Part shown: positions 40,273-63,299 of the stretch, in pieces
Numbering within the stretch: the first letter of the stretch is position 1
Layout of the letters: every line of letters begins with the position of its first letter
Source of the DNA: Onthophagus taurus
Taxonomy: Eukaryota > Arthropoda > Insecta > Coleoptera > Scarabaeidae
Length of the DNA: 64,000 bases
Reading direction: 5' to 3'
Assembly (NCBI RefSeq): GCF_036711975.1
Contig: NC_091966.1
Span: 20,653,501-20,717,500, forward strand
Position numbers and translations under genes: made by a program
The notes under the pieces: generated by a model
Databases searched by the model: none
Seen by the model: the letters and a program-made list of their open reading frames with translations, nothing else
Told to the model about the DNA's origin: nothing

Positions 40273-41448
40273 ATGGATAATAGAATAGAATTATTATTAG
40301 TAGAATTTATTGAACACGCTGAAGATGTTTTTTGCCATGATCGTGCACCAAGGTAAGTAAATAACATAATTTATATACACATAAATAGCTAATACACATC
40401 ATAAATTTGTTATTAGAATAATTTTAAGAGATGTCGGAAATCCTTTGGAGTCCTACCGCCAAAAAGAGTTGATACAACGTTTTCGGTTTGGTCGTGACAT
40501 AATCCAAAATATATTATTACCATTGGTTTACCCAAGAGACGTTGCTACAACAAATCGTGGCTTGCCAATTCCACCCATCATAAAACTTTGTACCGCTCTT
40601 CGGTTTTATGCAAGTGGAAGTTATCAGGTAATTATAAAAGACATCTTTTATAATTATAGTATAAAGGTAGAGGACAAGTTTAGCATATTATTACATCTTG
40701 TACTTACAGAGGATATGTGGGGATTTACCGCACATCAGCCAGACATCCACTTGCCGAATAATAAATGAGGTGTCGGAATTACTGGCAAGAAATATTGGAA
40801 AATATGTGAATTTCCCAAGCAGTGAAGCCGAAAAAACCAACCTACGACGAAAATTTTTCGAAATTGGAGGTTTTCCTGGAGTTGTAGGGTGTGTTGACGG
40901 GACTCACATATAAATTAAAAGTCCGGGAGGTGCCAATGCCGAAATATTTAGAAACAGGAAGTGATTTATGTCCTTAAATGTTCAGGTCGTGGCTGGACCA
41001 ACTTTGAAAATCTTTGATATTGTTATAAGATGGCCTGGGTCTGCACACGATAGCAGGATATTTAATAGCAACGCTGTGGCTATGAAATTTGAATCGAAGC
41101 TATTAACTGGAATATTGTTGGGCGACAGTGCCTACCAGCAAAATCAATTTTTGAACAACGATATAATATAGCACATGTTCGTACCAGAAACGTTGTAGAA
41201 AGAACGTTTGGCGTTTGGAAAGGACGGTTTCGGTGCCTAACTGGGGCCTTACAATGTAACATAAAAAATGTAACAAGGATTATTGCTGCTACAGCAGTGT
41301 TGCATAATATTGCGCAGGATATTGGGGCAGAAATCCCCAATAATAATGAAATTCCGAATGAAGAACGTATTGTGCCAGTTCTTCCTGCCGTGGATCGTCG
41401 AAGAGGGAATATAATAAGGAACGCTTTCATACAAAGACATTTCATGTA
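40273..41448 (+). pseudogene. Harbinger transposase (HARBI1-like), inactive
   Basis: Exons: about 40273-40351, 40414-40629, and 40710 to 41448. Recognisable blocks are RRKFFEIGGFPGVVGCVDGT (first Asp of DDE), WPGSAHDSRIF (second Asp) and RNVVERTFGVWKGRFRCL (Glu), then IIAATAVLHNIAQDIGA. Two in-frame stops interrupt the HI-IKSPGG and NRK-FMSLN regions, and a segment before the Glu helix is deleted. The catalytic acids remain but the gene is dead. The partner Myb/SANT gene converges on it. Confidence 0.82.
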
Positions 41449-41641
41449 ATAATTTTTAGTTTGTGTACCTTTGTACCTTTCATAATATATTAATTTTGAT
41501 TACATTTCCTTGATTTTCTAAATATATTTTTTTAAAGTCTCTAATTATTAAAGATGTTCTATACTATTATCGTTTCCATGTATTGTATTAGAAATAATAA
41601 TGTAGAGGTAATGCAAAGATAAGTTTATTTAATTAAATTTA

Positions 41642-42481
41642 TTACTTATTAATTTCTTTTTTTAATAATTCAATTTCTAATTTTAATTTCTCCTTATTTA
41701 TCTCATGCAATTCTGCTGCCTGCTGTCTTCTTTCTTCTATTTCTTTCATTTATGCCTTATGCAATTCGTTGTCATTAATTCTTTGTTGCCTTAATCTCTT
41801 CAACCTCATCTCGGCCTCCTCTTCTAAGGCGCTGGCAACCTTCCCTCGACTGCTCCGAACCCTCGGGGTTACTGATATGCGGTGGTGCACTGTCGGAGTA
41901 TCTTTGAGAAATAAATTCAATATAAAGGTTAAAATAATTACTTTTAAAAGCAAGCACTTGCTGGGTTCAGGGCTAGAGCCTTGCTCGACGACAACTGGTT
42001 GGAGTACATTATTTCTATCTAAATTATACTCCGTACTACCACCAGCTGTACAAGTTTCACTATCAATAGCTTCCGACAGTTCAATATCAACAGCATTTAA
42101 GACAGCGTCAACCGCATCATCATCTGGGATTGGAACGAATAATCCACCTCCTGTAGCCATCCTTGCCTTCTTTTCAGCGGCTAATTCTTTCTTCCTTCTA
42201 GCTTTGATGTTTTCCCAACATTTTCTAAGTTGCTCCAATGTACGCTGTCATTCAAAAGAGACACACGTTAAGAAATAAATTAAAATTAGTAGAAAAATTT
42301 AACATATAAAGGTTGTTTCAGCCATAGAATTATATTCTTTGGTAAGATTTTCCCAGGACTTTTTCTTTTTTGAAGTCGATACGCAATCTGACTTTTTGCA
42401 TTCAATATCATTATATTTACCCACCAAATCTAACAAAATTCTTTTTTCGTCCGCGCTCATAAAGGTTCGTTTTGGTTCCAT
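41642..42481 (-). pseudogene. Harbinger Myb/SANT-like DNA-binding protein
   Basis: Minus strand from ATG 42481: MEPKRTFMSADEKRILLDLV (SANT-like helices), then an intron at about 42310-42245. After it comes RTLEQLRKCWENIKARRKKE, an acidic middle (PIPDDDAVDAVLNAVDIELS) and a C-terminal coiled coil (EEEAEMRLKRLRQQRINDNE, then KEKLKLEIELLKKEINK). A stop interrupts the coiled coil after HKA. These proteins bind the element ends and bring in the transposase. The donor of intron 1 is unclear. Confidence 0.7.
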
Positions 42482-43032
42482 AACGTCAACAAAACGTCAT
42501 CGATTGTTATGACGTTTTCCCTAATTGCACACTAACGTTAGTGACTCTTTATGAATACCAAACTTTAGGGAGAGTGACACTTAAATTCCACTAACCCTAA
42601 AGTTAGTAATATTTTAGGTTAGTGTTAGCTTAGGTTAAGTGTCACTTTAGTGACGTTTATGAATTTGGCCCTACGAATTCATTTAATGTTATGCCAAAAA
42701 CTTAACGTCACATCGATTTAACCTCACATATTGAACAAATGTACTATTATAAATTTGCATTTAAACATGAAATGAAATGATAAAACAATTAAATGTTGAT
42801 TACTTTGTGATTATAATTTGTTCATAACAATAAATTAACAATTAATAGTATCAAATTCTTTAATTATCGTAGCTGGACGTAAAAGTCTTTTGCGACCTGG
42901 ACTATGTCCTGGACGTAAAAGACTTTTTTCTTCAAACGTCATTAAATGACAACTTTGTTGTCGTGTTTACTCGCGGTAGAAGTAAGTCATTGTTGCATAA
43001 CGACGGTTGCTAAGATCAACATAGCAAAAAAG

Positions 43033-51400: not shown

Positions 51401-53688
51401 CAGAGGAAGAAGACACAGTACCGACAAAGCGTAAAGTTCTGAAAACAGTAGCGAAGATTTACGACCCATTAGGATTACTTGGACCATGCACAGTAAAAGC
51501 GAAAATTCTACTGCAAGCCTTGTGGAAGAAAAAGCTGAATTGGGATGATGTATTAGACCCAGAACAAAGCGGAGAATGGTCAAAATGGTGCAAAGAACTA
51601 AATGACTTGTCTGAGCTAAGAGTGCCCAGGTGTATTATTCCAAACAAAAGGGACAAGGTGGATCTTCACATTTTTGCAGGCGCAAGTCCATATGCATATG
51701 GAGCAGTAGCTTACATAAGATGCCTATCAAACAACGAATGCAACTATGTGATGTCAAAAAACAGAGTAGACAAATCAGGTCAAAGGGAACTTACATTACC
51801 TAAGTTAGAACTGACAGCAGCTTTATGTGAAGCGAGACTTCAAAATTACATTGCAAAAAATATGTTGATCTATATCCAGAAGACGACTCTGTGGTCAGAT
51901 TCAAAGATATCTTTATATTGGATTAGAGGAAAATCCAAGAAATGGAAACCTTACGTACAAAATCGTGTAAACGAAATACACAAATTGAGCGATAGTGTAT
52001 GGAGATATTGTCCGGGAAAAGAAAATCCTGCAGACCTATTAACGAGAGGAATTTCAGCCAAAACATTAATTGAATCTAACTTATGGTTACGAGGGCCTAA
52101 ATGGCTGAAGGATGAAGAGAATTGGCCGAACGATGAATATTTTGAACCAGATGTGGATCAAGTTAGCAGTTTGTTAACTATACAACGAAACGAATCCACA
52201 CCGGAAACACAGCCCATATTTCCATTGGAAAAGTATGGAACATATGAGAAAATTATGCGAATCACGGCTTATGTTATAAGATTTATTAAATTAACAAAGA
52301 AGATGTACAAATCAAAGCGATTATCGACACAAGATCTAAATGAAGCAGATACTTATTGGATAAAATATACACAAGTAAAGGATTTGCCGAACGAGTTGAA
52401 AGCTTTGAAAAGGGGAATGCCGATACAATCATCATCTTCGATTCTGATGTTGAAACCATTTCTAGATGAGAATGGTGTCATGCGTTTATTAGGAAGGTTA
52501 GATGAAGCGCCTTTGAGCTATGATGAGAAACATCCAATCATACTACCAAAACGATCAATGTTGACGGAAAAAATTATGAGGAAATGTCATGAGGGGGTAA
52601 ATCATTATGGAGTAAATGCGACTTTAGCTGAACTGAGAAAGAGATTTTGGGTTCCGCAAGGCCGTCAGAAAGTTAAAGCAGTCCTTAACCAATGTTTGAA
52701 ATGTAAACGATTGAAAGCAAAACCTGGAAACGAAGTATGTGCTCCACTACCAAAAACTCGCGTAACTATGACAAATCCGTTTAACATAACAGGCATTGAT
52801 TTTGCTGGTCCACTATACGCCAACGTCGCAGGTCAACGAACGAAAACATAATATAATGTTATTTACGTGTGCGGTTGTAAGAGCAGTCCATCTGGAATTG
52901 GTTCCAGATTTGATAACTGAATGTTGTATAAGAGGGTTGAGAAGGTTCATTGCCAGAAGGGGCGTTCCTGATGTTGTATACTCTGATAATGCCAAAACGT
53001 TTAAGAGAACAGACCTTGAATTAAGAAAATTATCCGCTATCTTGGAATCAGAAAAGATTCAGGATTTAGTTAGAAAGCAGCGAATTCATTGGGGGTTTAT
53101 AGCGGAAAGAGCTCCATGGTGGGGTGGCTTTTGGGAGAGAATGGTAAAAACCGTTAAAGACGCATTAAAAATAACTTTAGGTAGAGCATACGTCGAACGA
53201 GACGAATTAGAAACTATTTTAATAGAAATCGAGGCGACAATAAATTCTCGTCCACTTACGTATATCAGTGATGACTCAACAGATTTGACTAAATTATCTC
53301 CTTCTCATTTTTTGACTGAAGTAAGATTTTGTATGAATTTAACCTCGAAGGAGATAAGTAGATCTGAAATATTGAAAAGGTGGAGTGATAGAGAGAAAAC
53401 GTTGAAAAGATTTTGGGACAGGTGGCGTTCCGATTATTTACAACAATTGCGGACAGCGCATCTAAGAAAATCGATAAATGCAATATCATTGAATATTGGG
53501 GATATTGTTTTGGTGCAAGAAAACAGTCCTAGGTTGCAGTGGAAGATGGGCAGGATTGTGAATTTGTACCAAGGTAGAGATGGTAAAATAAGGGCATGTG
53601 AAGTAAAGTTAAGTGGCGGAACTACATTACGACGACCAGTCCAACTCTTGTACCTCTTGGAGGTACAAGCCTTTTCGCCGGGGGAGGA

Positions 53689-53944
53689 TGTGGAGAATTT
53701 TGGTATGAAATAAACGAAGCCAGGGGAATCCCTGGTTGCGTGGAACACATCTGCGCAGCGACAACCGATAACCAGTACCACTCGAACCAGCGAGGTGAAA
53801 TTTTCGAAGCGCATCGCACCCCTACTGTATTATATTATGTTTTATTTTGTGTTATTTCTATCTAAAGTTACTTATTGTGTTTAAAAGAGTAAATAAGTAA
53901 GCTTTTTATGAACCGTGGTGCGTTTTATTAAAACTATTTCCACA
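53689..53944 (+). repeat. BEL/Pao 3' LTR
   Basis: 256 bp, directly after the polypurine tract and directly before the second GTCAC. Confidence 0.88.
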
Positions 53945-54814
53945 GTCACTTTCGCAATACGTAACGAAAAGAAAACTTTTTTTGAGGCAGAGATAAATAG
54001 TAATGTCAAGAATCCCTCAAAATTGTGGCGCTTACTGCACACCAATCAAGTGCACCCAAAGAACATCAAGACAATCGACGAATCACTTAAACATCCACAG
54101 CTAATAAATGATTATTTCGCTAATAATATTTCTTCACCTTTTTTGTCGTTGAACAACCTTGATTCTAATAAATCTTATATTTTGGATGTCAACGTATGTT
54201 TTAGTTTCGATATGGGAACGACAGGGACATTAAAAATAAGCACGATAAAATCAAATGCCTGTGGTTTGGATGCAATCGATCTGAAAATGGTAAAACTTGT
54301 ATTGGAGTACTGCCTCCAAGAAATCACTCATATCATGAACTTCTCACTAATATATGGAGTTTATCTGCCTAAAGTAAGCCATGCTACGTCACTAGGAGAC
54401 CTACGCCCGATTAGTATGTTACCTATCTTATCTAAAATATTAGAGAAGATTGTTGCTTCACAGCTAGTACGCCACCTGAATCATACCAATTTACTTCCAC
54501 GATGCCAATCTGGATTTCGGGAGAAGTATAGCACAACGAGCGCGCATTAACTAAAATTGTGAACGATTGGTGCTGTGCCATTAATGCCTCAAGAGTGACC
54601 TTCCTAGTTGTATTCCTAGATTTTAGTAAAGCTGCTGATATCATCAATCATCAGCTTCTAATAGCCAAGCCAGTCCGTTATAGGCCCCATACACCTGCAT
54701 ACATATTGGGCAACCTGATGTTGCGCAACAAAGTGTTGTACAAACATGGTTAGCCATACACTGTGCGCTATTTTATGCAAACCTCAGTTGTATGTGTTGC
54801 GTTCATACGGAAAC

Positions 54815-57800
54815 ATGCCATCTGACGAAGCGGCCTGTTTAGCTATAATAATTGCTATAACCTCCGAGGATGTTGGTATTAAAAAAAGAAGGAGGAAGAG
54901 GAGAGTATGGATGAAAGAGTGGTTGAAGAAAAGATCCCTTTTTAGCCACTCAAATCTCCCCAAGGAACTTCAATTGAGTTCACCAGTAGATTACAAAAAT
55001 TATTTACGAATGGACCCCACTACTTTTGGCGAATTACTGGTAATGATAACACCACTTATAGAAAAACAACATACTATAATGAGAGAAGCAATATCACCCA
55101 AGCAAAGGTTATTTGCAACTTTACGATACCTTACTTCTGGGCTTACTTACGAGGGTTTAAAGTTCGAAACAGCAATAGCTGCTCAAACACTTGGAAAGAT
55201 TATTATAGAGACCTGTGACGCAATCATAAAGGTTTTGAAGAAATATATAAAGGTAAGTAATTATTACTTTATTAACGTTCATTAAAATAACAATACAAAT
55301 AATATGAACTAAAAATAAACAAAGTAATATAAAACCTGAAAAACTGAAGTTATTTGACTGTTGGGCAAGTTTCTCCTACTACAATATATTTAAATAAAAT
55401 CTGGGTCTGGATATGGGTCTTCTGGTCTGCCTATCTGTACCGGAGCTGGGGAGTAATGAGTTTTTGTATTATTTGAATGTGATGGGTACACGTATTGGGA
55501 TGAATGTTGTGGTCTGTTCTCTAGAGTGGTGATTTGTACTGGAGATGGAGGGTATGATTGAGATAGACTACTATTACTTGTATGAGGTGAATATCCGTAT
55601 GAAAGTAGACGTGAGTTTGGCCCATTTATTGTTACAGAATTTCTGTGAAGGGTTCCAAAACGCCCTTCATATAAGATGTCGCTAATGGCCTTTTTCGCGT
55701 GAATTTGCTGCTCGGGCGACATTTTCACTAGCTCCAGTGCCCAACTTTTCGCTAGAATGTCTACCTCATTGTTGGAAGCACGCAGATGTTGGCAAGCCAT
55801 TCTTAATAATTCATTTCGGGTCTGAGATTCCTCGGTTGTCCCTTTTCGTTTTGGAGCTCTACGTCCTGTGGCAGCTTCTGGCATTTCTATTTCTTGAGAA
55901 GTATCTGGATTTTCCTCTTCTGCTGCATTTGCTTCTGGGTTACCATCGTCCCGAGAAGAATCCTATAAAAGGCCAAAATGGGTTTATAATATTCCTACTT
56001 TTCTTTATTAAACAATTCTATAAATAATAATTGAAGAGTCCACTGCAAAAGGGCGGAATTTCAAGAAATCTTTCGTCTTTTTTGCAGTGGGCTCTTCAAT
56101 TGTGCATGATTCAAGATGCAATTCTATAAATGACACTAACGATATGTTTCTTTCAGCTACCACAAAGTGAAAATGAGTGGAGAGCTGTAAGTAAAGATTT
56201 TGAAACGAAGTGGAATTTTCCTCTTTGCTTAGGGGCAATAGACGGTAAACATATACACATATTTAAACCCCCCGGAACAGGCTCCTATTACTTCAACTAT
56301 AAGCATTCATTTAGTATTGTTTTAATGGGAATTGTAAATGCAAACTATGAATTCTTGATGGTTGATGTGGGCGCTAATGGACGTGTTTCTGATGCAGGGG
56401 TGTTTTCAAATACCTTCTTCTATAAAAAACTTGTAGAAAAGAACTTGGGCCTTCCTGAACCGGAAAATTTGCCCTTAACTAATACCAAAGTGCCTTATGT
56501 TTTCGTAGGGGATGACGCTTTCCCACTTCTGGAGAATTTAATGAAACCATTTAGCAAGAGAAACCTCACCAAGGAAGAAAAAATTTATAACTACAGGGTG
56601 TCACGCAGCCGTCGGATTATTGAAAATGCATTTGGGATACTAGTGTTACGGGGGATGGATTGCGCCGAAGAAGAAACAACAGTTGTTGAATAAAACGAAA
56701 TAATTTATTTACAAAATATGTACAAAAAAAAACCCTCAAAGGTTTTTTTAAGACGAAAGGGGTCGTCTTCGAATTGGCGGTTGAAGTGCTGGCTTGTTGT
56801 CGCTGCTGTTGTCGCTGTTATCGTTGTCGCTTCGGAGTTCGGTTGGAAATTGACCGCTGATGGAAACCCGGCCGCCTTATATAGGCGCCCTTGGGTAAAA
56901 CCCTATCAACCGGGCGTTGTGGTTGGTTGGCGACCGTCCGATCCGTAGGTAGGGTTGACGACCAATGGCCAAGCAGATCGAACGGCGCTCAATTCGTACT
57001 TAGTGACACCCCCTCCCTCAAGGCGCTGGTTCGGGCTGCGCAGGTGGGTGTCGATGTGGTGGAGGAGCCAGACGTAGGTCGTTGATGTGGACTTTGCTGG
57101 GCTCTGCAGTCTGGTGTCTGCGGATCCAGTACGTTGTAGGTCCGGCCTCCTCTATAACCATGTGGGGTCCTATCCAACGAGGACCAAACGGCGTCGCTAC
57201 ATGAGCCCGCTCCATTACGAGCTGCCTTGGCAGGAACCGCCTGGGTGGTGGTACAGCCCCAGCGTATCGCTGGCGGTATCGGTGCTCGTTCCTGTGCGCT
57301 CGTCTTCTTCTCTCGGCCCGTCCTGCCGCTGGCTGTTGACCATCTTGGGGGCCCTCAAGAAACCATTCCCCAGGTCGCGGTAACTCGTATCCCAACAGCA
57401 GGGCGGCGGGGGTTTCTCTTGTCGCCGCGTTGCGCCGTGACCGAACGTTGAATAGAGCCCGATTGATGTGTCGATCCCAGGTCGTTGGATTTATGCCCTG
57501 GAGTTGGATCCGTATGCATTTCTTTATTTCTTGAATCCTCCTCTCCGCAGGATTGGCCTGAGGGTGGTATATCGGCGTCGTCCAGTGGTGGCACCCCCAA
57601 CGTCTCAGCGCGGAGTCCCAGTTGGCGCTGGTAAACTGAGGCCCATTGTCGGATAAAATGGCCCTTGGATAACCATACCGGGGAAACACCTCACTCTCCA
57701 GGATATTTATGATTTTCGGAGCGCTGCTGGTAGCGGCCGGAAACGCCTCCACCCATCGACTGAACAGGTCGGTGACAACGAACACAAACCTGTTGTTATC

Positions 57801-60800
57801 TCGTGTTTTCACGTATGGGCCCATGAGGTCTACTGCCAAAACTTCCCATGGTTGTGTGGGCGCTCGTGGTCGTAATGGAGCCCGTTCCTGTAGGGGTCCC
57901 CGCTTGAGCGATGAGCAGGCCCAGCAATCCCGGACGTGTCTGGCCACGTCTTCCTCTACGCCGAGCCACCAGTATTTCCTCAGGATGACCCTCGTGGTTT
58001 CCTCAGCTCCGGGATGGCCTGCGGTGGACGCATCATGGTAGGCGTGCAACACCTGGTCGTGCATGTCCTGTGGCACGATCAATCGGTTACCATCGGGATG
58101 TCGTCTCCACAAAAGCCCATCATGCACTAAATACTGGGCGGCGACTCTAGCTTCCGCCGGGTTTGCGGGACCCGCCTCGTTGATTCCGTCCAGGGTACGA
58201 ATCAGGTTTTGGCTGTGGGGATTTCGTCGTTGACTGTCTTTTAAGTCGTCTGCTAGCCCAGGGAATTCGACACATGCGATGTGGGGTCGGACGTTTTTTG
58301 GTTCTTGTTCGGCGGATGGTGGAAGAAACATCCGGTCGACGTCCGCTGTGTGACCCGCAGGGGTCGTTGGCTCATGCCCGGGTTGGCGCGAGAGAAAGTC
58401 CGGGAGTTCGTTCTGTTCCCCCGGGACGTGTTGTACGTCAAATTTATATTCCTGAAGAAGGAGCGCCCACCGGGTTAACTTGGCGTTCCGGTCCTTCATG
58501 GTGTCAAGCCATAACAATGCTCTACTGTCGGTGCGCAGGGTGAATCTTCTGTCCTCCAGGTACGGTCGGAAAAATCGCATCGCCCAGACGACTGCCAAGC
58601 ATTCCTGTTCGTTAGCATGGTAGCGCTGCTCAGTGGGAGACAACTTGGCGCTGGCAAATGCGATGATCTTCCTTTCCGGTTCTTGGTAGAGGACCGCGGC
58701 AATTCCCTTCCCGCTGGCATCGGTCTGTAGCACGAAAGGTTGAGTGAAGTCCGGGCGTCTAAGTTGCAGTGGGCGGCTCAGTAGCTGTTTAATCTCGAGA
58801 AAGGCGTTCTTGGCTTCAGCTGTCCACTTAAACTGTTTCTGGCCCCGCAAGAGATCTGTCAGCGGGGTTAACACTTCGGCGCAGCGTGGGATAAACCCGC
58901 GTAGCCAGTTACACAGTCCCAAGAAGGATCGCAGCTGCTTCTTGTTGGACGGCCTCGATGCGTCGCAGAGGGAGTTGATGTGGTTCGGTAAGGGCTCCAC
59001 TCCTCCTGGTGTAATCCGGTGACCCAGGTAGTCGATGGTTGTTGCCCCCAAGTGGCATTTTTCCGGTGATAACCGGAGGTTGTGTAACCGGAGTCGTTCA
59101 AACACCAGGTGTAAGTGTCTAAGGTGTTCTTCCCAAGAGTTGCTGTAGACGATGACATCATCCAGGTACACCAGGGCGAATTTCCGGAGGTATCCAGGGA
59201 GCACTTCTTCCGTCATCAACTTCTGGAACGTCGCCGGGGCATTCTTCAATCCGAAAGGCATGACGCGAAACTGGTAGGTGGCACCGTCGGGGGTTGTGAA
59301 GGCGGTTAAGGGTCGAGACCCCTTCTCCATTGGGATTTGCCAATATCCGGACCGCAGGTCGAGGCTCGAAAAAACGGTAGCCTGGCTGAGGTCCCGCAGC
59401 GTCTCGTGGATGATTGGCAACGCTGAGGACTCGTCCACCGTTTGCTGGTTTAATCGACGGTAGTCGACGCAAAACCTCTTGGCCCCATCTTTCTTCTCCA
59501 CCAGTACGATCGGAGATGAATACGGGGAACGACTGGCTTCAATGACACCTTCCGCCAACATCTTCTCTACTTCACGGGCGATAAATTCCTTTTTGGTATA
59601 GGAGCAGCGGTATGGCGGTAGTCGAAACGGCCTTGCTCCTTCGGTGAGCTCCAGTTTGTGCTGAGTTGCCCCTGTGGTACTCTTATGGGAGTCGGTAAAC
59701 ACGTCGGGGAAGGCACGAAGGGTTGTTAGAAAGGCCTCTTTGTGTTTGTCCGGAAATTGGTGACGGATAGTACTGACGTCCAGAGCGGGCAGTGGCGCAG
59801 TGGGGCTGCCCCGTCGGAAGTACATCGTGGTCCTCTTCTCTTTCCCGAAGTGAAAACAGCCTCGTTGGAAATCGAGGATCACCCCTTGGTCGCGGAACCA
59901 GGGATCCCCAAAAACAAACGGGGTGCTGAGTCGGGGAACCACCAAAAACTGCTGGGTGCACTGGAGTCCACCGATGGTGAACTGGATTTCGGCCTTCCCG
60001 AGGATGGGCAGCTGGGCATTCGGGTCCGCTTGGGTGGCGTAGGTGTCTCCCAGCGGTTTATAAGACGCGACGGCTCTTGAGCTGACGAAGTTGCTTGTCG
60101 AGCCGGAATCCAGGAGAGCTAGGCTGCGCCTTCCTGCTACCTCGATTATTACAGTCGAGCGGCTGGAGCAACCAGGTTCCTCCAATGTGGAGATTACTGC
60201 GGCCGTCCGGGTTGTCCTGGGCGAACGGCCGCCGTTTCGTTTCCCGAACCGGTGCTGCGTTGTAGGGGACAGTCACGGTTCCAATGGTACCCGGGGCAGT
60301 ACCAGCATCGGGGCACCTTCTTCTTGGGGTCCTCGTTGTCCCCTTCAGGAGTCTTCTTACCCTTTGGAGATGGTGTTGTGGGTTGTTTGAGGAGGCCCGA
60401 CTTCTTCAGAAGCGCCTCCGTGCGAATTGCTTTGTGTGGCAACTCGTGTATGTTGGCCGGCGTGGGGGACAGGTGCAGCTGTAGCTGAGGTAGCAGCAGG
60501 GCAACCATCATTCCAATGTCGTCGTCCGGTTTTCGGTGCAGACGACGGGCTTGCAGGTGTTTGCGTTTCAAAAACGCCTGCACCGATTCATCAGTCTGCT
60601 GTTGGCGGCTGAAATATTGGCCGTTGACTTGTGCCAATATTTGCGGACAGTTGAACCTTTCCAACAGCGCTTGGTGAAATTCCGCGAAGGACATCTCCAA
60701 ATCATCGAATGCACTCCACCACACAGCGGCATCTTCTCGAAGAAAACTGGTCGCTTTCTTTGTTTGTTCCGCTGATGAAATGCCGGTGTCAGTGAAATAT

Positions 60801-61818
60801 GTCTTTATTACCTTGATGAATTCTGCAGGATCCTCCAAGGAATCGCCGGTGAAGCACGGGGGCTCGGCTTTTGGGATGCAGACATGTTCGGCCAATAACT
60901 TTGACAGGGCGCAAACCTGTGTCTGAACGGTCGCACTGTCTTGTTTCGGTTCTTCGGCGGTCTTCCCCATCTTCTGCGTTTGGGATTCTTTTCCTTTCTT
61001 CTCTTCTTTAATCAGTTGGGTGGGCCCCTCTTCTTCTGAAGAGCTTGCCAAATCTTCCTTCGTCGGATATGGCCGTGTCGACAATGAACGGCTTCTCGTT
61101 GTTGGTCCTTTTGGCATTATCGGGCCATACGTTGCGCGCCAATTGTTACGGGGGATGGATTGCGCCGAAGAAGAAACAACAGTTGTTGAATAAAACGAAA
61201 TAATTTATTTACAAAATATGTACAAAAAAAAACCCTCAAAGGTTTTTTTAAGACGAAAGTGGTCGTCTTCGAATTGGCGGTTGAAGTGCTGGCTTGTTGT
61301 CGCTGCTGTTGTCGCTGTTGTTGTCGCTTCGGAGTTCGGTTGGAAATTGACCGCTGATGGCCTTATATAGGCGCCCTTGGGTAAAACCCTATCAACCGGG
61401 CGTTGTGGTTGGTTGGCGACCGTCCGATCCATAGGTAGGGTTGACGACCAATGGCCAAGCAGATCGAACGGCGCTCAATTCGTACTTAGTGACACTAGCT
61501 TCTCGATTTAAGATTCTGTTAAGTCAAATTAATCTATGTCCAGAAAAAGCTGTTACTATAACATTAGCATGTTGCTATTTGCACAACTTTTTACGACATA
61601 AAAATGTAGAGTGTTACTTCCAAGGCGGCATAGATGTTGAAAATATAAATACCGGAGAGTTTACAAATGCTGATTGGAGAGCAGATCCTACGTTACAAAC
61701 ACTACAACCACTTCAAGGGAGAAACAGTACAACAACAGCAAAAGAAGTAAGAGCACAGTTTTGTAATTACTTTAATACTGTTGGAGCTGTTCCGTGGCAG
61801 GACAACATTATATCTTAA
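54815..61818 (+). CDS. Harbinger transposase (HARBI1-like), interrupted by a Gypsy element
   Basis: Exon 1 is 54815-55252 and ends AAG/GTAAGT. Exon 2 starts at 56157 after TTTCAG and is split by the Gypsy insertion (56644-61494, CTAG duplicated); it resumes after 61498 and stops at 61818. Both host segments stay in one frame, for about 414 residues. Exon 1 has a basic region ([18 protein letters not shown]) and the helical [19 protein letters not shown] block. Exon 2 carries the DDE acids: [27 protein letters not shown] and [13 protein letters not shown]. The first ATG of the open frame is 54746, but 54815 is preferred because the upstream part is TIR-like sequence. The 0.9-kb intron 1 holds the antisense last exon of the MADF-BESS gene. 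Confidence 0.85.
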
Positions 61819-62316
61819 CTATAAATTATCTGTTTTTCACAGTTGTGCTTAAAAATATATTACTTTTTAAATAAATTATTTCAAAATAATAACAGCATTT
61901 AAATAATAACTGATTTGATTACTTACCCTGCCTCCATTTTCAGTCTCTTGGGGCTCGTCCATGGTAGAAGTCCCTGGTAATTGACTTTCTTGGTCTCTGA
62001 GGAAATCTAATTCTTTAAAATACCATAAACTTGGTTCATAAAGATTTTCGGTGCCTGTGTCAGATCTATAGCTGGCCACTACTTTTTTCAATTCCCTCCG
62101 ATACGCAGTACGCAAAACATTTATTTTCTTTCGCACCATCTCTCTATCGGCGCTAGGTTCTATTTCCTTTAACTTTTCGGTTAGTTTTTCATTCGCGACG
62201 TTCTTCTTGTTTCTATTTTTGTACACATCACTCTTCACTTTCCACACTTCTGGCAACTGGCGATATAGATTAATAAATTCGCTCCAAAAGTCTTTGTTGT
62301 TTATAAAGTTCGCCAT
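55390..62316 (-). CDS. Harbinger MADF-BESS accessory DNA-binding protein
   Basis: Exon 1 is 62316-61927 (130 codons, ends AGG/GTAAGT). Exon 2 is 55962-55390 (191 codons with stop, starts after TATAG). Both are phase 0, giving 320 residues. Exon 1 encodes a MADF domain: [40 protein letters not shown], then [17 protein letters not shown]. Exon 2 has an acidic stretch, a basic patch ([12 protein letters not shown]), a BESS-like helix ([20 protein letters not shown]) and a Ser/Pro/Tyr-rich tail. MADF binds DNA and BESS mediates protein contacts; in Harbinger-type elements such partners help the transposase reach the ends. The intron contains the whole second exon of the antisense transposase, now enlarged by the Gypsy. 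An upstream in-frame ATG at 62406 is possible. Confidence 0.82.
56644..57008 (-). repeat. Gypsy 3' LTR (left in window)
   Basis: 365 bp, carrying a TTATATAGGCGCC block that is the likely TATA region. Nearly identical to 61144-61494. Confidence 0.92.
61144..61494 (-). repeat. Gypsy 5' LTR (right in window)
   Basis: 351 bp. Lacks a short block (GAAACCCGGCC area) present in the left LTR. Followed by the second CTAG. Confidence 0.92.
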
Positions 62317-62520
62317 TTTAAAATTATCAGTACTACTAGTGTGTGGCGTATGCGGAACTTGTCCAAACCTGCCCTTAACTGTACAACCTCTCGAGCCAGG
62401 ATCCATATATGATGCAATAGTTGCACAACGTCATCCGTTGCGCAATTAATTTCAAACAATTTTGAATTTCTACAACTTGTTGCGCATCACGTTGAACAAC
62501 ACCATACACCATACAATTTT

Positions 62521-62550
62521 TGCACAACAGCCTGCACAGGCTGTTGTGCA
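62521..62550. repeat. Perfect subterminal hairpin of Harbinger
   Basis: TGCACAACAGCCTG and its exact inverse are separated by CA, 26 bp from the right end of the element. With the TTGCGCAA palindromes at 54721 and 62438, and TTGCGCAT at 62480, this marks likely binding sites for transposase or MADF partner. Confidence 0.65.
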
Positions 62551-63299
62551 ATTTGTTCGCAGGTGTATGGGCCCTTTTATGGATGTAAAGAAGACGGTTC
62601 CAGTCATATCTTGTGGACAGATCTCAACATACAAAGATTAATGGTAATATATCTGGCGGTATTCTTCTAGTCAAGCAAGCTGTTCCACAGGGAAGTGTTT
62701 TGGGCCTATACTATTCAATTTATTTACTGCAGACATGCCAAGTGTTCATCAATACGCGGATGACGCGCAGATTTATATCTCTTGTGATATTATCAGTGTT
62801 GATGACACGGTGCGCTTGCTTAACACTGATTTAATGAATATTTGCGAGTGGTGTTCTGCTAACGGGTTAATTCTTAACGCGAAAAAAACTATTTGTATGT
62901 GCGTCGGGTCGGCCAACATTTGCAGAAGAGCAATCGATAATTTATCGATTCCCATACACCTCAATGGAACTGTCTTAGCGTTCTCTGATTCGACTAACTA
63001 CCTAAGTCTTACTGTCGGCAGTAATCTTAATTTTGCGGAACATGTAAATAAGAAAATCAGTGTGTGCTACTATAAGTTAAAATCTTTATATAAATTTAAA
63101 TCATTGTTGTCATCACAATTGAAATGGAGACTTGTTAACTCCTTAATTCTAAGTGAACTTGATTACTGTAGTAACGTTTACTACAATTTTCTTTCAGCTA
63201 CTTTAAAAAATCGTATTTAATATGATTATCCAGATGTGGTGTTCTTAACTTTTTTTTTAACTCTAATGAATTTTTAATGTCCTAATCATTCATTGAATT

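Follow-up and report, generated by a model that had tools for sequence, protein, structure and literature searches.

Can two genes on opposite strands each hold the last exon of the other inside their only intron, and is such an arrangement a design or an accident of insertion? The question is raised by a PIF/Harbinger DNA transposon in a 64,000-nucleotide stretch of the scarabaeid beetle Onthophagus taurus (RefSeq assembly GCF_036711975.1, contig NC_091966.1, forward strand; C1:20653501-20717500), referred to here as the window. A first-pass annotation of the window had described the transposase gene and an antisense MADF-BESS gene of this element as interlocked. From the element, its copies and its relatives, we hold with a probability of a little under 90% that this PIF/Harbinger DNA transposon carries two genes, for a transposase and a MADF-BESS helper, and that both proteins would be made from interlocked (mutually nested) antisense genes.

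In the arrangement we propose, each gene would consist of two exons, with the terminal exon of each in the sole intron of the other, and the introns would overlap just between two back-to-back 3' splice sites. Production of either protein would require removing the terminal exon of the other gene, in antisense, as intron. The sequences themselves show the anatomy, the splice-site consensus, the phases, the homology and the persistence of the order from family to family. Beyond this, both splice junctions are presumably used, and after splicing the mRNAs would lie side by side along the element, complementary over little of their length, though the primary transcripts cross. The transposase and MADF-BESS proteins probably work jointly, by analogy with other Harbingers, and transcription of one unit across the other may act as a mutual brake, so that the two exclude each other.

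Anatomy of the element in the window

The features of the window copy are as follows (window coordinates; the name Gypsy for the inserted element is our assumption).

54681..62576, no strand assigned: PIF/Harbinger element, with TTA flanks at 54678-54680 and 62577-62579
54815-55252, plus strand: transposase exon 1, 438 bp, 146 codons, N-terminal region, open, phase 0, donor GTAAGTAA
55253..56156, plus strand: transposase intron, 904 bp, containing MADF exon 2; acceptor ..TTTCTTTCAG ends at 56156
55268..55273, minus strand: predicted MADF poly(A)-like signal, beside the transposase 5' splice site (motif match only)
55962-55390, minus strand: MADF exon 2, BESS-like, 190 codons plus stop, open, acceptor ..TTTTATAG
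55963..61926, minus strand: MADF intron, containing transposase exon 2 and the Gypsy element; donor GTAAGTAA, acceptor TTTTATAG
56157..56643, plus strand: transposase exon 2, first part (DDE_Tnp_4), reaching the Gypsy insertion; acceptor TTTCTTTCAG
56644..61494, minus strand: Gypsy long terminal repeat (LTR) retrotransposon within transposase exon 2; LTRs 56644-57008 and 61144-61494, 4-bp CTAG duplication
61499..61818, plus strand: transposase exon 2, last part, beyond the insertion; joined to the first part in Gypsy-free copies
61870..61875, plus strand: predicted transposase poly(A)-like signal, lying upstream of the 5' splice site of the MADF gene (motif match only)
62316-61927, minus strand: MADF exon 1 (MADF domain), 390 bp, 130 codons, open, phase 0, donor GTAAGTAA

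The layout described by the first-pass annotation was confirmed, with both introns in place, canonical splice sites and phase 0, and the coding parts of both genes were stop-free as it had read them. An exon of each gene thus lies in the intron of the other, on the opposite strand. Assignment to PIF/Harbinger follows from a DDE_Tnp_4 transposase (5.3e-22 in transposase exon 2 of the window copy; 1.1e-31 in the related element L080, described below) and a second gene with a MADF domain (MADF_DNA_bdg, 6e-16 in MADF exon 1). The BESS match of MADF exon 2 was weak (0.06, under the Pfam cutoff), and the last part of transposase exon 2 matched the C-terminal 30 positions of DDE_Tnp_4 at 0.061, also under the cutoff. 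Transposase exon 1, where a helix-turn-helix was sought, matched no Pfam family. Terminal inverted repeats are present: the window termini TAGGCCCCATACACCTGC and AAGGGCCCATACACCTGC (the right one reverse-complemented) match at 16 of 18 positions, counted by eye, and the L080 copies have a 36-bp end match of 97%. The TTA that flanks the window copy at either end fits a 3-bp TWA target-site duplication.

Copies of the element in the genome

The survey covered one genome (290.8 Mb, 33 contigs). Protein searches found about a dozen near-identical copies per exon, transposase exon 1 included, and for MADF exon 2 diverged relatives as well as near-identical copies. Copies without the Gypsy insertion, which the first-pass annotation had recommended looking for, exist and retain the arrangement. 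In these copies of the window element's family (family A), the order is transposase exon 1, antisense MADF exon 2, transposase exon 2, antisense MADF exon 1 (T1> M2< T2> M1<); the MADF intron is 891-1110 bp long and contains transposase exon 2, and the transposase intron measured 786-905 bp in family-A copies other than that of the window. A second MADF exon lying nearer to MADF exon 1, named in the first-pass annotation as evidence that would tell against interlocking, was found in no copy of the window element; such an exon is present in some other families with short transposase introns.

The window copy is a Gypsy element in a Harbinger in a reverse-transcriptase frame, and nested insertions at this single locus might by chance have produced its layout. 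Diverged families and many other loci have the same order, which makes this explanation exceedingly improbable, and a nested-insertion artefact is ruled out by the Gypsy-free copies and diverged families together.

To read layouts, profiles were iterated for five pieces (T1, T2 and T3 of the transposase; M1 and M2 of the MADF gene) and run on six-frame translations of the loci. M2 was found without the use of strand or position, and orientation was set without M2. All M2 profile matches (60/60, E < 1e-3) were antisense to the transposase. M2 and T2, the DDE exon, were both present in 51 of 68 elements or fragments, many of the 51 being copies of one family; M2 lay upstream of T2 in 48 and downstream in 3. 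The table used solely for picking loci held 138 of 151 DDE-exon matches, 43 of 46 MADF exon 2 matches, and the other two lists minus their fragment and weak rows.

Two side observations concern these copies. Family-A copies and neighbouring MADF matches repeat in the same order ~870 kb apart, at C8:9.80-9.84 Mb and C8:10.67-10.71 Mb, a pattern suggestive of segmental duplication. At C7:5688672-5692034 (L038), the first half of transposase exon 1 nearly abuts MADF exon 1 and both inner exons are gone; this is an internal-deletion derivative.

Families and splice sites of clade I

Loci, four of them added later, were grouped by us, without a fixed threshold, into 31 Harbinger families on a transposase tree; these families are not a random sample. 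All four exons stood in the interlocked order in 22 families, five were partial and four were convergent:

Fully interlocked, clade I: A (window), B, f4, f5, f6, f8, f11-f14, f16-f21
Fully interlocked, clade II: II1, II2, II3, II4, L088, L090
Partial: f3, f15, L089, II5 (transposase exon 1 outside the stretch or not found)
Partial: f7 (weak M2 remnant only, E 0.004-0.005)
Convergent: C8:6578700 / C11:10991500 group (transposase intron 59 bp, MADF intron 263 bp)
Convergent: C14 (intact MADF exon 2 next to MADF exon 1)
Convergent: C6:31839000 (M2 judged by eye)
Convergent: L091 (downstream BESS-like frame by eye, no profile match; MADF exon 1 outside the stretch; clade II transposase intron)

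The first-pass annotation had called two separate convergent genes the ordinary Harbinger layout; most of the MADF-type elements sampled are interlocked. Because the order recurs in many distant relatives, the interlock has the look of real design rather than accident.

Splice sites in clade I were read with a script that accepts solely GT-AG pairs with matching phases, several of the pairs being from copies of one family. The transposase intron pairs were phase 0 in 35 of 36 cases and 34 lay exactly at the profile exon ends, with three cases lacking a pair. For the MADF intron, 28 of 31 pairs were phase 0, and five cases lacked a pair.

In the convergent element at C14:608900-613921, an antisense frame in the transposase intron resembles a decayed MADF exon 2; the likeness is weak (profile E 0.0086; best BLAST 0.095), and the element may be an intermediate between two layouts. 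At C1:43805900 and C8:8268632, too, the remains of MADF exon 2 (E 0.004-0.005) are weak and tentative.

Clade II and the L080 element

The strongest evidence for interlocking comes from clade II, which is interlocked with intron positions different from those of clade I in both genes: the transposase intron is placed earlier, and the MADF intron falls within the MADF domain. MADF exon 1 of L080 matches positions 1-37 of the MADF model (3.6e-8) and exon 2 matches positions 45-84 (2.1e-5) followed by BESS (4.8e-8), all above the Pfam cutoffs. Given the predicted splice, L080 would thus have MADF and then BESS in one protein, above both cutoffs. The two halves of the MADF domain flank transposase exon 2 (DDE_Tnp_4), which sits within the MADF intron. 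Because the domain is divided across this exon, splicing would be needed for a whole MADF domain in clade II.

The L080 splice signals are GTAAGT donors and TTTTAG acceptors, in phase 2 for the transposase and phase 1 for the MADF gene; the summed lengths are multiples of 3 and each gene stops only at its end. The introns overlap by 52 bp, between the back-to-back acceptors. Coding sequence occupies 1989 of 2622 bp, leaving 33 bp from the MADF stop to the transposase donor and 42 bp from the transposase stop to the MADF donor, and both of these gaps contain poly(A)-like signals. TAA flanks the element on both sides (read by eye). There are eight full-length copies of 2618 bp, the query included, which are 100% identical as rounded; the interlocked L080 element therefore moved recently. 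The L078, L079, L080 and L082 families each have at least six copies among the matches listed, with equal or near-equal transposase exon scores, and several clade II lineages look recently mobile; of these four, L080 is the one whose recent copies were checked at the DNA level.

These exons also bear on an alternative in which there is no interlocked gene, MADF exon 1 alone encoding a short protein and the antisense BESS exon being either a unit of its own or a relic. The MADF exon 1 of the window stays open for 16 codons beyond its donor and the family-A BESS match falls under the Pfam cutoff, as this alternative would have it. Against it, no single L080 exon carries the MADF domain in full, the stretches in the two exons matching successive parts of a single model, and donors, acceptors and phases agree; we regard it as very unlikely. 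MADF exon 2 as an unrelated unit is ruled out by the divided MADF domain of clade II.

Tiling of the two transcripts

The first-pass annotation had expected long double-stranded RNA from the convergent transcripts. This expectation is not supported for spliced RNA as predicted, since the exons do not overlap and in most elements poly(A)-like signals precede the donor of the other gene. Tiling was measured in 6 of 10 elements, those with both exon-2 frames long (the ten include C6:32374700, whose borders proved wrong). In these six, the distance from the MADF stop to the transposase donor was 38-160 bp, from the transposase stop to the MADF donor 45-202 bp, and from acceptor to acceptor 22-192 bp. 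Poly(A)-like signals, which are motif matches in A+T-rich DNA, occupied the gap that precedes the donor of the other gene in 6/6 elements for the MADF gene and in 4/6 for the transposase, as they do in the window copy and L080. With non-overlapping predicted exons and signals so placed, little complementarity is expected between the mature mRNAs, and in most elements measured they should barely overlap, C3:11319400 excepted. Unspliced primary transcripts would be complementary, so long duplexes would require unspliced RNA.

Loss of one gene without the other

According to the first-pass annotation, interlocking also prevents the loss of either gene by a simple internal deletion without harm to the other. 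Family A decays in either direction, and the fourteen loci tallied do not support the idea:

MADF open, transposase broken (5): window copy, C1:22801606, C11:890667, C11:10181052, C8:10675412
Transposase open, MADF broken (2): C8:1117343, C3:10739575
Both open (1): C8:9805798, with the transposase acceptor changed (..AAAAAG)
Both broken (6): C11:582125, C8:13210731, C2:1476343, C7:3177186, C7:20832342, C3:19999275

The breaks are mostly small mutations and not deletions. C8:9805798 and C8:10675412 resemble a single segment in duplicate and are perhaps not independent of each other, and the fragments C7:5688672, C3:20005366 and a second window piece were not counted apart. A deletion is seen at C8:20930800, which lost most of M2: its transposase intron is 434 bp, compared with 855 bp in its sister (421 bp less), the transposase splice sites are unaltered, and just the end part of MADF exon 2 is kept (92.5% identical over 40 residues). 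Since the inner exon lies wholly within the intron of the other gene, its loss spares that gene. Either gene can be lost without the other.

Evidence weighing against interlocking

A number of observations weigh against the interlocked reading. Most copies are broken, with all frames open at 1 of 14 family-A loci, where the acceptor is altered. Four convergent families occur. The clade II splice scan of seven loci found good transposase donors in 5/7 (not L079 or L090) and good MADF donors in 3/7 (L079, L081, L082), with none in L078 and L088; the L080 MADF donor, beyond the range scanned, was identified by eye, and MADF acceptors were fair or good in 7/7. In two of the six well-framed elements the gap contains no poly(A)-like signal for the transposase. 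The signal of C3:11319400 lies 199 nt past the transposase stop, inside MADF exon 1, and C8:9822000 had no transposase signal within 300 nt.

The sample and the limits of the selection analysis count on the same side. All evidence comes from one genome, and the loci were picked by their match to the window exons, the later ones by several exons together, which is a biased sample. At 76 of 138 DDE-exon places no other piece was listed within 4 kb, and the layout there was read only where the locus was fetched. Because loci were chosen for a window-exon match or for clustered exons, layout counts are not genome-wide rates. Ratios of nonsynonymous to synonymous divergence (dN/dS) in three distant family pairs were 0.16 (T1), 0.14 (T2) and 0.17 (M2), with dS computable in 3 of 13 exon comparisons; these ratios count in favour of the interlocked reading, and they are rough because dS is 2.0-2.3, near saturation. 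Within-family dN/dS scatters on either side of 1 and gives no clear answer, as is expected if most copies are dead.

Age, origin and persistence of the interlock

The transposase tree of the 31 families (IQ-TREE, LG+F+G4) was midpoint-rooted, with no outgroup; support was 91 for clade I and 92 for clade II. When the five partial families were counted as interlocked, Fitch parsimony gave an interlocked root, four layout changes and one intron-type change. From this midpoint-rooted tree we infer that the interlocked state is ancestral and that the convergent layout was reached four times. Support of the nodes that place the convergent families was 85 for L091, 82 for C6:31839000, 81 for the C8:6578700 group and 46 for C14. 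The transposase and MADF trees are broadly congruent, with the C8:6578700 group and C14 placed differently. The interlocked layout is probably old in this lineage, and it probably outlived the relocation of introns in both genes or arose twice. Two origins, in which clades I and II became interlocked independently from convergent ancestors, would account for the differing intron positions in both genes, the single intron-type change dividing two supported and mostly interlocked clades, and the clade II transposase intron of L091, which is read as convergent. The interlocked root found by parsimony speaks against them, weakly, as no outgroup was used; we consider two origins possible, at somewhat less than even odds.

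Between selection for the layout and a frozen accident the odds are near even. As a frozen accident, the interlock would be real and spliced and would bring no advantage, its undoing requiring a rare duplication or exon move; we give this about an even chance. It sits well with the position of the four convergent families among interlocked ones on the tree, and with C14, where an intact M2 stands beside M1 and a possible decayed M2 is left in the transposase intron (weak). The short introns of the C8:6578700 / C11:10991500 group (59 and 263 bp) also mean that interlocking is not needed for compactness. Opposed to it are the persistence of the order across near-saturated dS and through intron relocation in both genes, and the fact that II1, II2, II3 and II4, with at least six equal-scoring copies each among the matches listed, are all interlocked. 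In a fuller selective account, interlocking would be ancient and selectively kept, with one origin or two; the units would exclude each other within each copy, and the mature mRNAs would for the most part escape the tail-to-tail overlap to which convergent genes are exposed, which would hide the element from small-RNA silencing. We regard this account as doubtful, its odds being lowered by the poly(A)-like signal results.

Relation to known systems

Elements of the PIF/Harbinger superfamily (PHIS) have a DDE transposase, a Myb/SANT helper, terminal inverted repeats and a TWA target duplication (PMC4482050). These two-gene elements share the transposase, a helper gene, the repeats and the duplication with the present one; the main text of that source is without the words intron, orientation, overlap, opposite and antisense, and the interlocked order is not described in it. 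According to PMC9710019, transposition of the rice and zebrafish elements needs both proteins, and in zebrafish Harbinger the Myb-like protein binds near the ends and carries the transposase into the nucleus. The same source describes the insect co-domesticated pairs APLG/APM, LPLG/LPM and DPLG7/DPM7, each a transposase and a MADF gene from one insertion. They resemble the present element in pairing a transposase with a MADF gene, and differ in being adjacent genes or one dicistronic transcript; "nested" and "overlap" are absent from its main text. Animal gene overlaps have been classed as nested, embedded, and partial convergent, divergent or parallel (PMC2330155). Nested or overlapping antiparallel pairs likewise are opposite-strand genes sharing space through introns; they are host genes and not a mobile element, and the mutual holding of terminal exons is not set apart as a class in the text available. 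The interlocked layout is not mentioned in the passage of PMC9179366 that was consulted, and no description of it was found in the portions of the open-licence literature searched. Viral contigs (two transposase queries) and bacterial and archaeal contigs (one scan) gave no relative, which says little on animals.

Gene pairs with mutual nesting of terminal exons should be hard to evolve and to express. Yet the order recurs here, in full in 22 and in part in 5 of 31 families; it exists with two sets of intron positions, was mobile recently and has been left several times. This makes testable the question of why gene order and overlap are retained or lost. There is also a practical warning: when Harbingers are read as single open frames, both genes are split and the BESS half of the helper can be missed.

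Other features of the window

A second Harbinger lies at 40385-42496 (about 40.4-42.5 kb); it is decayed, its transposase frame is broken and its layout is convergent. The first-pass annotation had taken it as the ordinary counterpart of the interlocked element. Its convergent layout stands; its helper is not MADF. The helper, on the opposite strand, is Myb_DNA-bind_5-like (E 0.0032, under the cutoff). Both elements combine Harbinger-type transposase pieces with an antisense Myb-like gene, the one convergent with its Myb_DNA-bind_5-like helper and the other interlocked with MADF-BESS.

The LTRs of the Gypsy element are 365 and 351 bp long and differ by two substitutions and two gaps (by-eye count), and it carries minus-strand open frames of 1084 and 336 codons; from the nearly alike LTRs and the long open frames, its insertion is recent. 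The Harbinger itself sits in a reverse-transcriptase frame that resumes beyond its far side and that we take to be LINE-like (long interspersed nuclear element). Upstream of the Harbinger, at 52790-53713, is an open frame of another retroelement, presumably integrase-like.

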